A stretch of DNA of 64,000 nucleotides from Caldisericota bacterium (GTDB lineage: Bacteria; Caldisericota; JANLFM01): contig JANLFM010000002.1 of assembly GCA_024655865.1 (NCBI GenBank), positions 83,647 through 147,646 of the forward strand. The letters are read 5' to 3'. The notes beneath the pieces were generated by a model, which was not told where the DNA came from, did not search any database, and worked only from the letters and a program-made list of their open reading frames with translations. Positions 1 through 4,826 of the stretch are shown piece by piece. Position 1 is the stretch's first letter, and the number at the start of each line of letters is the position of its first letter. Made by a program: the position numbers and the translations under genes.

Positions 1-390
1 AAAAGTCAGAGTGTCGAAGAAGTACTCTTGAGCAAAATCCCAGCCGAAAATCCAGTAGGCCAAGGGAGCCGTGAGAAATTGCAAGAGCAGGAAGAGAATT
101 CCCCAGATGGTATTGAGCCCGCGAAATGTGGAAATAATGATCTGCGCTATGCGCATGGCACCAAAAATAACGGCCAGGAAAGCGCCAGGAAGAGCCCAGA
201 AAATCAGATAAAGCGAGAAATAGAGGGTATCTCCCAGCCAGAAATGGCCAGCCCAAGTTATCGCCAGAAAAGGCTCAAAGCAAATCCAGGCAAGAAAAAT
301 CCATTTAAGAAAGAAGGGTCCGGAGACGAGCTCCTCCTCAAAGGTTCTCGTTTCTCTCTCGTACTCCTCAAGGTCCCTATTTTTGCCCAT
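1..390 (-). CDS. Membrane protein, C-terminus cut by window edge
   Basis: An open frame runs leftwards from an ATG at 390 to the window edge (130 codons, no stop seen). After a charged N-terminus (MGKNRDLEEYERETRTFEEE) it shows about three hydrophobic segments rich in Trp and Phe (roughly residues 27-48, 52-80 and 93-115), so it is an integral membrane protein with a cytosolic N-terminus. I do not recognise the family. It lies on the same strand as, and downstream of, the trpB2 operon, 77 bp after the stop of the serine-kinase-like gene, and could be co-transcribed. The plus-strand frame over the same bases is its shadow. Confidence 0.6.
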   Translation of the reverse strand, partial: MGKNRDLEEYERETRTFEEELVSGPFFLKWIFLAWICFEPFLAITWAGHFWLGDTLYFSLYLIFWALPGAFLAVIFGAMRIAQIIISTFRGLNTIWGILFLLLQFLTAPLAYWIFGWDFAQEYFFDTLTF

Positions 391-467
391 CAAGTAATTT
401 TATAATTTCTCTTCTGCGGAAGAGAAAGAAGCAATAGATAGGCTCCTTTATCCCCCCTTTCTTTACC

Positions 468-944
468 TTACTGCCAAAGGTTTTCGCTTAAAGGGCTCAT
501 TTTTAGAAAATCCAGGGGGATAGGGCACCTGGGTATTTGCCAGGGCCAGATGTGCCTGGAGGTTTTGCTGGGGTAGAGTTCTCCCCTTAGCCCTCTGGAG
601 ATCACACTCTCTTTATTTACGGCGATTTCCGGACGCCAGCTCGCTACTTTTATGGAGCAATCGCCGTAGTCCACGAGGTAAGCGGGGATGAGCTCACAGC
701 CCAGCTCCTTCAGCGCGCAAACCCTGTGGTGCCCGTCAAGGATCACTAAGGAAGCTCTATCCACAACCACCGGGTAGAACAGGAAGCCATCTCTCTTGAT
801 TTCCTGAGCTAGTTCCCTGAGGTGATTTTCATCCACCATCTCGTGATGCTTGAGACAGGGAAAATATACCAGAGCCAGGGCTCCGGGGAACTGTCCCTTA
901 TCCCATAAGCTTTTCGTGATGGAGAATGAAAGCCCTTTTTCCAT
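468..944 (-). CDS. ParB/SerK-fold protein, candidate free-serine kinase
   Basis: 158 aa with a ParB-like nucleotide-binding fold. The family motif DGHHR is at residues 70-74, followed by a short helix and the strand PAYLVDYG; an HHE sequence sits at 33-35. In the free-serine kinases SerK (archaeal, ADP-dependent) and SbnI (staphylococcal) this fold phosphorylates L-serine to O-phosphoserine rather than binding DNA; the short single-domain length and lack of a helix-turn-helix domain fit them better than a partition ParB. The ATG at 944 has an AAGGAG site that overlaps the trpB2 stop codon, 10 bp away, so the two are translationally coupled under the same tryptophan T-box. Serine kinase activity is inference from fold and context; a regulator is the alternative. 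Confidence 0.62.
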   Translation of the reverse strand: MEKGLSFSITKSLWDKGQFPGALALVYFPCLKHHEMVDENHLRELAQEIKRDGFLFYPVVVDRASLVILDGHHRVCALKELGCELIPAYLVDYGDCSIKVASWRPEIAVNKESVISRGLRGELYPSKTSRHIWPWQIPRCPIPLDFLKMSPLSENLWQ

Positions 945-954
945 TTTCCTCTCC

Positions 955-2349
955 TTATGAACCCTCTTGAGCTGATGAAAAGGGAAGGTCTTTCAGGGAG
1001 CGCTCGATTTCCTCCCGGGGTTCATAATCCTCGAGCGATCCTTTAAGGTGCGCCTCATAGGCTCCCAAATCGAGGTAGCCATGACCGCTCAGATTAAAAA
1101 GGATGGACAGGGACTTATTTTCTCTCTTTGCTTCAAGGGCCACATCTATCGCCACCTTGACAGCATGCGCCGATTCCGGAGCAGGCAAAAAGCCCTCTGT
1201 TCTGGAAAACAGGACGGCGGCCTGGAACACCTCCTTTTGTCCCACTGCTTGAGCCTCGATGAGCCCCTCTTTGTAGAGCCCGCTGATAATCGGGGACATC
1301 CCGTGATAGCGCAAGCCGCCGGCATGAATGGAAGGTGGAACAAAGCCGTGCCCAAGCGTGAACATCTTCAAGGCAGGGACTATCCCTGCTGAATCACCGT
1401 AATCGTAGGCGTAAAGACCTCGCGTTAACGATGGGCAGGCTGTGGGCTCCACGGCGATGATCCTTGGTTTCTGCGGGGCTTTCTTCCCAGATTTTTTTGC
1501 CTGAAGGAAGGAACGGAGAATTGGGAAAACCAGGCCCGCGAAGTTACTCCCTCCACCGACACAACCAATCACCACATCCGGTTTGTCGCCAGCTTGCTCT
1601 AACTGGAGCAGAACTTCCTCCCCAATTATCGTTTGGTGCAGCAACACGTGATTCAGGACGCTTCCCAGGGAATATTTGGTGAAGGGATTGGAAACAGCAT
1701 CCTCCACAGCTTCGCTGATGGCAATTCCCAGACTGCCCGGGTGTTCCGGGTTTGAAGCAAGAATCCCCCTTCCGGTTTCAGTCCTGGAACTGGGGCTGGG
1801 AAGGACCTCTGACCCATAAACTTCCATCAGAGTTCTGCGGTAGGGCTTTTGAGTGTAACTGATCCTTACCATGTATACCGTGCACTCCAGATCGAAGAAC
1901 GCGCAGGCCATGGAAAGCGCTGTCCCCCACTGCCCTGCTCCCGTCTCCGTGGTTAGCCTTTTCACTCCTTCCTTTCTGTTGTAATAAGCCTGGGCCACAG
2001 CTGTATTTCCCTTGTGGCTTCCTACCGGACTGAACCCTTCAAACTTGTAATAAATCCTTGCCGGGGTCTCCAGCTTCTCCTCGAGTCGTCTCGCCCGGAT
2101 TAGGGGCGTAGGCCTCCACAGGCGGTAAATGTCCAGGACCTCTCCCGGGACGTCAATGAACTCCTCACTGGCTACCTCCTGACGAATTACGGCCTCCGGG
2201 AAGATGGGAAGGAGGTCCTCTGGTGAAATCGGCTCAAGGGTCTGAGGATGAAGGGGTGGAGGTACTTCAAATGGAAGGTCGTGCAAAATGTTGTACCACC
2301 GGGTCACCATCTCCCGTTTTTCTAAAAAAAGATCAACTTTCTTGTTCAT
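955..2349 (-). CDS. trpB: Tryptophan synthase beta-like protein TrpB2
   Basis: 464 aa PLP enzyme making tryptophan from indole and serine or a serine derivative. It belongs to the TrpB2 branch: long N-terminal extension (about 80 residues), PLP lysine at 113 in SPVGSHKGN instead of the TrpB1 type HTGAHK, catalytic Glu135 in TETGAGQWG, and phosphate-binding GGGSN at 265-269. The start at 2349 has AAAGGAG seven bases upstream; an upstream in-frame ATG at 2460 would translate the T-box terminator and must be wrong. No trpA or other trp gene is adjacent. TrpB2 proteins are thought to salvage indole, and some have been reported to prefer O-phosphoserine. The next gene is a candidate serine kinase. 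Expression should rise when tRNA-Trp is uncharged (T-box at 2376-2664). Confidence 0.93.
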
Positions 2350-2375
2350 GACCATTCTCCTTTCTTTTTTGAAAT

Positions 2376-2664
2376 AAAAAAGAGCCGCCCTCTTATGGAG
2401 GGCGGCTCTTTTAAACCGCGGTGCCACCTCAATTGGATCCTTAAACGGAATCCCACTCATTTCCGGATACGGAGACCAAAAGTCTCTATATATCCTCCCC
2501 TTTTAACGGCGGGTTCCCGTCAGAGCCTACTTGTTTGCTTTCGGCCCTGCAACTCCTGGGTCCATTCGGTCGCTCCTTGCAATATCGGGCTTACACTATC
2601 CCCGACTCGCTGAATTGCCGGTGCTGCGCTTACTAGTCCCAATCATCGCCTTTAAAAAATTTAT
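2376..2664 (-). promoter_or_regulatory. Tryptophan T-box riboswitch leader
   Basis: A complete T-box leader for trpB2, read on the minus strand. The 5' part has the stem I GA-rich motif (GGCGATGATTGGG near 2640-2652). The specifier loop is GAA-TGG-ACC with TGG at 2564-2562, i.e. a tryptophan codon. The canonical T-box GAGGTGGCACCGCGG is at 2430-2416; its TGGC bulge would pair with a GCCA tRNA end, matching the G73 discriminator of bacterial tRNA-Trp. The competing terminator is a 12-bp stem (2409-2398 with 2392-2381) followed by five U at 2380-2376. Uncharged tRNA-Trp should stabilise the antiterminator and allow transcription of trpB2 and the kinase-like gene. Confidence 0.96.
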
Positions 2665-2671
2665 TGGGGTA

Positions 2672-2699
2672 ATTATTGCTCATTCTGGCAATTTGTCAA
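2672..2699 (-). promoter_or_regulatory. Promoter of the trpB2 operon
   Basis: A perfect -35 TTGACA (2699-2694), a 16-base spacer and a -10 AATAAT (2677-2672) place the transcript start near 2665, just before T-box stem I. It starts 20 bp after the stop of the upstream methyltransferase gene. Confidence 0.8.
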
Positions 2700-2718
2700 G
2701 AAAATTGAGAAAATTTTT

Positions 2719-3321
2719 TTACACTTTGCTGAGCCTGGCTTTCACAAAAAATATTTCCTCATTCTCTATCTTCAGCTCTACTTCCAGTCCTTCCTCATCC
2801 ATCCACCTGGAAATCTCCTCCGAAGAGGGCAAAATGTCAGAGGAGACAGCTTCAATTGATCTGTGGCGCTCATTGATTTTCTCCCTTCCCTCAGAGTGGC
2901 AGATGATGATCCGGCCTTCATCTTTTAACATCCGAGCCATCTTTCTTAAGGCTCCTCTCTGATCCACGAAGTGGGGAAAGGAGGAATAACAGATTACTCT
3001 GTCGAAGAGCAGGGCCAAATCCAGTTCCATAATATCAGAGACCAGAAAATACACGTTGGGATAGCGCTCCCTGGGAAATTTACGGTGCGCTACAGAGACC
3101 ATGCTCGGGGAAAAGTCCACTGCAAAAAGGAGCCCCTGGGAGCCGATTTTTTTCAGAATGTAGGGGATCAAAATCCCAGTCCCACACCCACAGTCCAGGA
3201 CAGCCTGCCCAGGTGCTAAGTCCCCCAAATCCAAGAGCTTTTTGATCTTTTCGGGATCATGCTGAACTCGAGAATCCCACTCCTCAGCGAGGCTATCAAA
3301 GTACTCTCTGCGAGCGGACAA
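2719..3321 (-). CDS. Class I SAM-dependent methyltransferase
   Basis: 200 aa. The glycine-rich SAM-binding motif I VLDCGCGTG is at residues 41-49, followed by the acidic residue of motif II in AVDFS and a post-motif region LLFDRVICYSSFPHF, typical of the UbiE/Methyltransf_11 group of small-molecule methyltransferases. The substrate is not evident. The start is a TTG at 3321 with GAAGGAG seven bases upstream; it overlaps the end of the ECF S-component gene by 26 bp, so the two are coupled and may act on the same transported compound. No cofactor biosynthesis gene lies nearby to name the substrate. Confidence 0.85.
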   Translation of the reverse strand: MSARREYFDSLAEEWDSRVQHDPEKIKKLLDLGDLAPGQAVLDCGCGTGILIPYILKKIGSQGLLFAVDFSPSMVSVAHRKFPRERYPNVYFLVSDIMELDLALLFDRVICYSSFPHFVDQRGALRKMARMLKDEGRIIICHSEGREKINERHRSIEAVSSDILPSSEEISRWMDEEGLEVELKIENEEIFFVKARLSKV

Positions 3322-3889
3322 GGCTGGGCTCCTTCAAAATTAGTTTCACCAGCAAGGGAATCAAAACAAGCTGGATAAGGATCCCGGGAAGTCCTACTAC
3401 GAAGAGAGCAGAGGCCACCTGAAGGAAGTCGAAATTCTTCCCGACAACCAGAGAGATGATCAACCAATTCAGCAAGAGGGAAACGAACCTTCCAACTATC
3501 ATGGACAGTATGAGCGCTGGGTAGATGCCCAATCTGGCATTGCGGAAAAGCAGGGAAGTCAACGCCCCGTAAACTAGGAGCTCACCCATCATAGTGAAAA
3601 CTGTTGGGACAGGGGGCATGGAGGTAAAAAAGAAGCTTAAAAGAGGAGAAAGTAACCCCACCAGCCCTGACAGTTCCCAGGGAAGAAAAAAACCGGCGAT
3701 GAGAACCGGAAGGTGCATTGGCAAAAACACATTCCCTCCGATTTTCAAAATGTGGAAGACCAGGGGGAAGAGAATCCCTAAAGATAGAAGAAACCCGGCT
3801 ATGGAGATGTTATATATTGAGAGGACTTTCTGTGATCTCCGTTTTCGCTCTGGTAGTTTCTTCTCTAATTCCAAACCTTCGTTCTCCAT
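3296..3889 (-). CDS. ECF transporter S component, substrate unknown
   Basis: 197 aa integral membrane protein with five to six hydrophobic segments after a basic N-terminus (residues 1-25). The segment MHLPVLIAGFF followed by a SGLVGLLSPLLSFFF stretch and MPPVPTVFTMMGELLVYGAL is the usual pattern of group II ECF substrate-binding (S) components for vitamins and related small molecules. No ECF ATPases or T component are nearby, so it probably shares a common energising module encoded elsewhere. It is coupled by a 26-bp overlap to a methyltransferase and follows nikR by 98 bp, but it does not look like the CbiM/NikM metal S components. No riboswitch was recognised in the short leader. Confidence 0.72.
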   Translation of the reverse strand: MENEGLELEKKLPERKRRSQKVLSIYNISIAGFLLSLGILFPLVFHILKIGGNVFLPMHLPVLIAGFFLPWELSGLVGLLSPLLSFFFTSMPPVPTVFTMMGELLVYGALTSLLFRNARLGIYPALILSMIVGRFVSLLLNWLIISLVVGKNFDFLQVASALFVVGLPGILIQLVLIPLLVKLILKEPSLVRSQRVL

Positions 3890-3987
3890 TATTCAACCTC
3901 TTGGTGTGAAAAAATAAAAATTAGTAATAAAAAATTAGCACGGCAAGAAACAGTAAGTCAAGAAAAGGGGGAAAGAGCTTTTAAAAA

Positions 3988-4407
3988 TTAAGCCAGGTTT
4001 CTCCCGGTGGAAGCCGCAAGTAGCTTTCCGAGTTTTACCCCTTTGGTAGCGGTAATCTCATCGGCAACTTTCTGCACACGGTCCTTAGGCCCTCTGAGGA
4101 CAATCGCTTCCAGGCAGTGATCCTCATCCAGGTGCACGTGCAGGGAGGAGACAACACAGCCCAGGTTACAGTGTTCAATTTCGGTAATTTTTTCCGAGAG
4201 TGCGCGCACGTGATGGTCGTAGACGATGGAAAGGACTCCTACCACCTCTCCCTGGGATTCCCGCCACTCCTCCTCCACCAGGGAAGCCCGGATGAAATCC
4301 CTGAAAGCCTCCGAGCGGTTCCGGTACCCTTTCCTCCTCAAGAGCTCCTCGAGTTTTTCTCCCAGCTCCTCCGGTATTGAAATGCTAAACCTGATCGTTT
4401 TTCCCAT
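3988..4407 (-). CDS. nikR: Nickel-responsive regulator NikR
   Basis: 139 aa. The N-terminal ribbon-helix-helix (RFSISIPEEL at 6-15, then the NRSEAFRDFIR helix) binds DNA; the C-terminal ACT-like domain binds nickel. Ligands His79, His90, His92 and Cys98 have exactly the spacing of E. coli NikR His76, His87, His89 and Cys95, so high-affinity Ni site residues are intact. It normally represses nickel uptake genes when nickel is plentiful. No nickel transporter is adjacent; the same-strand ECF S component downstream is the nearest candidate target. A 17-bp AT-rich palindrome lies 8 bp before the ATG and could be the autoregulatory operator. No good Shine-Dalgarno sequence is visible. Confidence 0.93.
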   Translation of the reverse strand: MGKTIRFSISIPEELGEKLEELLRRKGYRNRSEAFRDFIRASLVEEEWRESQGEVVGVLSIVYDHHVRALSEKITEIEHCNLGCVVSSLHVHLDEDHCLEAIVLRGPKDRVQKVADEITATKGVKLGKLLAASTGRNLA

Positions 4408-4415
4408 TTCAGGAT

Positions 4416-4432
4416 AAAAATATCATATTTTT
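4416..4432. promoter_or_regulatory. AT-rich palindrome upstream of nikR
   Basis: AAAAATAT-C-ATATTTTT is a perfect 8+1+8 palindrome in the 89-bp divergent region between nikR and csaA. In addition TCATATTTT (4423-4431) is repeated inverted as AAAATATGA (4457-4465) 25 bases away. Either could be a NikR operator or simply an AT-rich promoter; the half-sites do not match the E. coli NikR arrangement. Confidence 0.35.
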
Positions 4433-4496
4433 TACCCAAGGATGGCTGTTTGGTGCAAAATATGAATTCAGGAAGCCTGATAAGGGAGGTTTTAGA

Positions 4497-4826
4497 ATGA
4501 TTACGTACGAGGAATTTTTGAAGGTGGAAATGAGGGTAGGCACAATCCTTGAGGTGGAGGACTTTCCCCGAGCGCGGAAACCCTCATACAAGTTGAAGAT
4601 CGACTTCGGCCCTTATGGCATTAAGGTTTCCTCGGCTCAAATTACTGATTTTTACTCAAGGGAGGAGCTTAAGGGAAAGCAGGTAATCGCCGTTACGAAC
4701 TTTCCTCCCAAGAATATAGCCGGCTTCCTCTCCGAGGTTCTGGTTTTGGGAGCTGTGCTCGAGGAAGGAAAGGTAATCTTGCTGGAACTTGAAAGGCCGG
4801 CACCTAACGGGACAAGGATCCTGTAA
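4497..4826 (+). CDS. csaA: CsaA-type tRNA-binding-domain protein
   Basis: 109 aa, essentially one OB-fold tRNA-binding domain of the MetRS C-terminal/EMAP type. Family signatures are seen in order: VEMRVGTILEVEDFPRARKP, YKLKIDFGPYGIKVSSAQIT, and VTNFPPKNIAGFLSEVLVLG. CsaA proteins act as small dimeric chaperones linked to protein export in Bacillus and also bind tRNA. The ATG has a GGGAGG site nine bases upstream. It is transcribed divergently from nikR and stands alone; a 144-bp gap follows with nothing recognisable. Confidence 0.88.
   Translation: MITYEEFLKVEMRVGTILEVEDFPRARKPSYKLKIDFGPYGIKVSSAQITDFYSREELKGKQVIAVTNFPPKNIAGFLSEVLVLGAVLEEGKVILLELERPAPNGTRIL

Follow-up and report, generated by a model that had tools for sequence, protein, structure and literature searches.

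The window analysed here, a stretch of 64,000 nucleotides from a Caldisericota bacterium (contig JANLFM010000002.1, positions 83,647 to 147,646), holds a Trp T-box leader followed by a gene for a TrpB2-type synthase and a gene for a 158-residue ParB-fold protein, hereafter mini-SerK. Promoter, T-box, terminator, trpB2 and mini-SerK gene all lie on the minus strand, in that order, at the following window coordinates:

2672..2699, minus strand: sigma-70-like promoter TTGACA-N16-AATAAT, matching 11 of 12 consensus positions, directly upstream of the T-box
2395..2655, minus strand: Trp T-box leader (RF00230), Rfam score 118.0 bits (gathering score 93), E 1.8e-25, full-length match (1-219)
2562..2564, minus strand: specifier codon UGG (Trp), as GAA-UGG-ACC in the specifier loop
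2378..2412, minus strand: intrinsic terminator hairpin of 15 pairs with a U-rich tail (-27.7 kcal/mol, z -7.9)
955..2349, minus strand: trpB2, TrpB-like PLP synthase of 464 aa, with the ATG at 2349 as best start and the ribosome-binding site AAAGGAG at 2357-2363
468..944, minus strand: gene of mini-SerK, 158-aa ParB-fold protein, predicted free-serine kinase by SerK homology and predicted fold
840..842, minus strand: codon of E35, aligned with the catalytic Glu30 of SerK and invariant in 14 of 14 SerK-like proteins
723..737, minus strand: DGHHR motif (residues 70-74), in which D70, G71 and R74 are invariant and H72 and H73 nearly so

The leader scores above the gathering score of its family over the full length of the model, its specifier fits the regulated pathway, and it is followed by a terminator hairpin whose 5' arm is common to the antiterminator. 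The Rfam scan thus confirms the original prediction of a complete Trp T-box with the specifier TGG at 2564-2562. Homologous leaders precede trpB2 in G001, the sister genome and sole other genome of the genus (114.7 bits with RF00230), and in G003, from the same family (123.4 bits); the UGG specifier is invariant in these three leaders, which represent three genomes and two genera. The promoter pattern has a single match in positions 1-4500 of the window, where shuffled sequence yields three on average, so the promoter call is argued from its position and not from its score. Upstream of the T-box, both genomes of the genus encode an ECF-type substrate-binding component (PF12822; window 3296-3889 and L016 7171-7761), whose substrate is perhaps related to indole or tryptophan. 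In the window, T-box and ECF gene are separated by a SAM-methyltransferase gene (2719-3321) that the sister locus, syntenic in other respects, lacks.

The trpB2 product passes two family models, NF009057 (709.5 bits; cut-off 366) and TIGR01415 (651.8 bits; cut-off 518.85), although the NCBIfam names of these families are still of the "TrpB-like" kind. Its closest PDB matches are the TrpB 6hul_B (E 9e-141) and the TrpB2 4qys_B (E 6e-123), together with 6hte, and all three of these nearest solved relatives are tryptophan synthases of the TrpB2 group. The assignment as a TrpB2-type synthase therefore stands, with the start refined to 2349. A mechanically delimited reading frame of 501 residues from 2460 was rejected, as it would cross the terminator. 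For TrpB2 enzymes, dependence on O-phospho-L-serine has been described (Busch et al. 2014, as cited in PMC11917138), and the title of a study by Hiyama et al. (2014), as cited in PMC12727527, presents the TrpB2 of T. kodakarensis as an indole-salvage enzyme. A 2007 study of trpB evolution saw no conserved neighbourhood for trpB2 outside trp operons (PMC1854888).

The mini-SerK gene starts 10 nt past the trpB2 stop; its ribosome-binding site AAGGAG (951-956) overlaps the trpB2 stop codon, and a terminator search of the junction found none between the two genes. Behind it lies a gene for a membrane protein of ~223 aa with no Pfam match (window 1-393, or L027 7369-8040; L016 4214-4903 in the sister, at a gap of 9 nt), which may be the third gene of the operon.

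The 158-aa protein carries the ParB fold and the DGHHR motif that the original prediction had placed 10 bp behind trpB2. By phmmer, SerK from Pyrococcus and Thermococcus (1vk1/5x0b; E 1.3e-12) and SbnI (E 6e-7) both rank ahead of any ParB. The SerK alignment comes in two stretches, with residues 29-117 of mini-SerK corresponding to SerK 24-116 and residues 108-145 to SerK 202-239. SerK residues ~117-201, a middle region of ~85 aa, are missing, so that mini-SerK does not span the full SerK chain of ~242 residues. Its scores with the equivalog models fall far below their cut-offs, both for SerK (NF053625; 65.8 bits, E 3.1e-18, cut-off 380) and for SbnI (NF033589; 35.5 bits, E 6.7e-9, cut-off 350), and it also stays below the cut-offs of ParB_N (PF02195; 20.6 against 26.3 bits) and of the ParB partition-protein model TIGR00180 (20.2 against 58.45 bits). 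The E-values obtained with SerK and with NF053625 place the SerK homology, together with the gene arrangement, beyond chance. Since the equivalog cut-offs are not reached, however, mini-SerK is worded here as a protein that works like SerK, and not as SerK itself.

Both the catalytic Glu30 and the DGHHR motif of SerK are found in mini-SerK. Their conservation was read from an alignment of 14 SerK-like proteins from bacteria, one archaeon and plasmids, and the deposited SerK mutants E30A and E30Q alter the very position aligned with E35. The structure model of mini-SerK, built from a three-sequence alignment (pLDDT 74.7, pTM 0.72), points in the same direction: it matches SerK and SbnI entries with Z scores of 11.6-15.3 (best SerK 15.3 over 132 residues, SbnI 14.7), compared to 7.7 or less for sulfiredoxin, Noc and ParB. 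The proposed SerK-like kinase is thus upheld as regards its closest relatives, by sequence and by predicted fold, and its retained catalytic Glu, while the protein is a shortened relative that belongs to neither the SerK nor the SbnI equivalog. The N-terminal domain of the Aeropyrum O-phosphoserine sulfhydrylase (6l0q, 1wkv) also matches residues 24-152 of the model, weakly and below the level of trust (Z 6.5, 74 residues); the two could possibly share a phosphoserine-handling domain.

Genes for mini-SerK proteins are also found in other genetic settings. In the genus g9 of the same phylum (family f4), the mini-SerK gene is directly next to a gene of the cysK/M type, in most cases overlapping it, in all 10 genomes where it was found (one of them degraded). 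The mini-SerK gene precedes cysK/M, and both are located behind iscS-iscU wherever the flank was read (e.g., L017 4196-8620), an order suggestive of a bacterial path by way of O-phosphoserine to cysteine and to iron-sulfur clusters. Mini-SerK genes are also present on plasmids of rhizobia, agrobacteria, Aureimonas, Nitratireductor, Serratia and Janthinobacterium, within siderophore, diaminopropionate or NRPS clusters, where the products are annotated as "ParB N-terminal domain-containing" (L042, L044, L045, L048, L050, L129, L131-L135). Many of these clusters include SbnA-like genes of the "cysteine synthase family" (TIGR03945 ~240 bits, below the cut-off of 350), along with SbnB-like or octopine-dehydrogenase genes and IucA/IucC. 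An alternative order, with two IucA/C genes, an aldolase, a decarboxylase-type PLP enzyme and mini-SerK, mirrors the staphyloferrin B cluster, and some plasmid mini-SerKs have no PLP-enzyme or siderophore neighbour within the range read. In staphyloferrin B synthesis, SbnI produces O-phosphoserine for SbnA (PMC12414870), and the plasmid proteins are probably serine kinases standing in for SbnI, judging by this gene context. From the CysK/M and SbnA-like neighbours it follows that the recurring partner of mini-SerK is a beta-replacing PLP enzyme able to take O-phosphoserine, and TrpB2 is another enzyme of this kind. There are two further occurrences: a viral contig from IMG/VR (L113 2920-3339) encodes a mini-SerK-like protein of 139 aa in which the stretches with Glu, DGHHR and KTxKH are present, and a Bathyarchaeota contig (L015 4974-5384) encodes a mini-SerK of 136 aa, with threonine-synthase and MoaD-cysK-like genes ~2.6 kb away from it.

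Many proteins with the ParB fold bind CTP, ATP or GTP and are not kinases, and an archaeal SerK-like protein bound CTP rather than ATP (PMC12704722), so that mini-SerK, which reaches the equivalog cut-off of neither SerK nor SbnI, could also be an NTP-binding regulator or a kinase of another small molecule, with TrpB2 using free serine. This is improbable: 158 residues leave no room for an HTH or dimerisation domain, the catalytic Glu is invariant, as are D, G and R of DGHHR, and a generic regulator does not predict partners across phyla that are O-phosphoserine-capable PLP enzymes. Instead, mini-SerK very probably activates serine with phosphate for TrpB2, as far as homology and gene context can tell.

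The gene content of the genome bears on both substrates of the synthase. Neither trpA (PF00290, positive in 14 of 14 control genomes) nor trpB1 was found in the source genome, which is 96% complete, and among 53 examined genomes of the phylum none has a trpA above the cut-off. TrpB2 is thus restricted to free indole here, which supports the indole salvage put forward in the original prediction. Likewise, neither mini-SerK genome of the genus yields serA at E 0.001, with 14 of 14 controls positive, an absence that rests on one model and two incomplete genomes. Without serA, O-phosphoserine cannot derive from 3-phosphoglycerate and would need serine as its source. The related genome G003, where the Trp T-box and trpB2 have no adjoining kinase gene, does have a serA-type gene (E 1e-93). 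Within this three-genome sample, the kinase thus occurs where 3-phosphoglycerate cannot supply O-phosphoserine.

The pairing of trpB2 with a kinase candidate is found beyond this locus, with clear differences among lineages. The arrangement T-box-trpB2-mini-SerK is repeated in the sister genome (83% identity for trpB2, 64% for mini-SerK), but since the whole region is syntenic this second pair is not independent and adds little. In G059, from another phylum, a gene for a full-length SbnI-like protein of 302 aa is located 28 nt upstream of trpB2, and the TrpB2 of this genome is the closest outside the genus (61%). In family f2, a DUF1015 gene lies 3' of trpB2 on the same strand in all five loci with a readable flank, the two genes overlapping by 8 nt at one extreme and lying 175 nt apart at the other. 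Among the 18 genomes of f2, DUF1015 is present in 6 of the 7 with trpB2 and in none of the 11 without it (Fisher p 3.8e-4, a value that ignores relatedness), and in the single exception trpB2 sits at a contig end. Four of the 14 named control genomes have trpB2, three of them with DUF1015 (chance 0.011). DUF1015 is absent from both mini-SerK genomes of the genus and from G059.

Elsewhere, at 40 trpB2 loci (36 in two other phyla and four on plasmids), no gene for any of these kinases lies within the 1.5-3 kb read. A universal adjacency of trpB2 and kinase is accordingly rejected; the adjacency is lineage-specific, not general. The recurrence of the gene pair anticipated by the original prediction is borne out by kinase candidates in other lineages, and not by these 40 loci. 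A search for SerK-like proteins with alignment A1 in the phylum of G059 returned nothing, missing the SbnI-like gene of that genome, whose sequence A1 did not include; a search with alignment A3 in the phylum of G058 gave no match, and a scan of viral contigs for TrpB2 found none.

DUF1015 and mini-SerK share a D-G-x-H-R motif. Homology between them is not claimed, given that their profiles match over only 21 columns round DGxHR (probability 76). Operons of a serC-like aminotransferase gene, serA and DUF1015 occur in two phyla (L094 1219-4050 and L099 2-2793), and this order suggests a link of DUF1015 to phosphoserine metabolism. A DUF1015 protein of Thermotoga maritima is reportedly a serine kinase. 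Gene context, motif and this report together would make DUF1015 a candidate serine kinase.

A different role for the same activity has to be weighed, in which mini-SerK is a serine kinase for general serine assimilation or cysteine synthesis and stands in the Trp operon by chance. The Thermococcus SerK serves cysteine and serine metabolism (PMC5120207), and the mini-SerK gene of another genus in the phylum has cysK/M as its partner. However, a true cysK is present in the source genome (474 bits against a cut-off of 351), next to a gene of the cysE type; cysteine is therefore made via O-acetylserine and O-phosphoserine is not needed there, nor is there a serA to return O-phosphoserine to 3-phosphoglycerate. 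Translation of the mini-SerK gene is moreover coupled to that of trpB2, both being controlled by a Trp-specific T-box, and kinase-type genes stand beside trpB2 independently in other lineages, making a chance position quite improbable. That the TrpB-like enzyme is some other O-phosphoserine-using beta-replacement enzyme, as the serine deaminase activity once proposed as a second function of TrpB2 (discussed in PMC1854888) and the cautious NCBIfam naming might suggest, is highly improbable, because the Trp-specific T-box 5' of the gene is kept in three genomes of two genera, the nearest solved relatives (6hul, 4qys) are tryptophan synthase beta chains, and, in a genome with no trpA or trpB1, a synthase of some other product would not account for the T-box.

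The operon is thus likely to serve indole salvage under tryptophan starvation, with mini-SerK and TrpB2 leading from serine through O-phosphoserine to tryptophan. Uncharged tRNA-Trp would bind the UGG T-box and prevent termination, and trpB2 would then be expressed together with the mini-SerK gene, to which it is coupled in translation. Mini-SerK is predicted to convert free L-serine into O-phospho-L-serine, with ADP or ATP as donor, and TrpB2 would beta-eliminate the phosphate and add scavenged indole to the resulting aminoacrylate to yield L-tryptophan. O-phosphoserine as the actual substrate of this TrpB2 and uptake as the source of indole are presumed steps. The T-box and its specifier, the gene order, the protein families and the catalytic Glu are observed, as are the predicted fold, the lack of trpA, trpB1 and serA, and the recurring kinase-type partners. 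The route gains support from these absences, from the kinase candidates that recur beside trpB2, and from the mini-SerKs that adjoin other O-phosphoserine-capable PLP enzymes. Counting against it are the ~85 absent SerK residues, the equivalog scores far below cut-off, the 0 of 40 other loci and the syntenic nature of the sister. In the parts that can be read from sequence—kinase homology, absence of serA and recurring pairing—the kinase-fed serine-to-tryptophan pathway of the original prediction is supported.

A broader model appears plausible and, on balance, favoured: where the serA route is lacking, TrpB2 would be fed by serine kinases of its own, which would have been recruited from different groups on at least three occasions (mini-SerK, SbnI-like and DUF1015), with mini-SerK as a general O-phosphoserine module for TrpB2 (tryptophan), CysK/M (cysteine) and SbnA (diaminopropionate).

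Despite their similarities, this system and those already described exhibit clear differences. The ADP-dependent SerK of Thermococcales (TK0378/PF0380) shares with mini-SerK the ParB fold, the catalytic Glu, DGHHR and a C-terminal KTxRH stretch. However, it is a protein of ~242 aa whose gene stands alone in T. kodakarensis and which acts in cysteine and serine metabolism, whereas mini-SerK belongs to a bacterial Trp operon; bacteria had been described as lacking clear SerK homologs by Makino et al., who nowhere mention tryptophan (PMC5120207). SbnI, the serine kinase of staphyloferrin B synthesis, has a homologous fold and a gene beside that of an O-phosphoserine-using PLP enzyme, but it is longer (~254 aa), is also a transcription regulator according to its NCBIfam name, and has SbnA and not TrpB2 as partner. 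The DUF1015 proteins (PF06245), which take the kinase's position next to trpB2 in f2, are far larger (~430 aa). As for the TrpB2 synthases of Busch et al. (2014), as far as later citations describe them, the present enzyme resembles them in its family models and in having no TrpA partner, and differs in its regulation by a Trp T-box and its co-expression with a predicted substrate-making kinase. A 2025 survey of the ParB-CTPase fold mentions neither tryptophan nor TrpB, and no paper joining TrpB2 to a serine kinase was found in the open-access literature searched, in line with the novelty originally suggested. Each part is of a known kind, while the Trp-regulated route that they make up together is apparently undescribed.

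If this reading is true, it would explain the origin of O-phosphoserine for TrpB2 in organisms that lack the phosphorylated serine pathway, and tryptophan would join cysteine and siderophores among the uses of free-serine kinases. It would also give a function to many small "ParB N-terminal domain" proteins, and a testable prediction for DUF1015.
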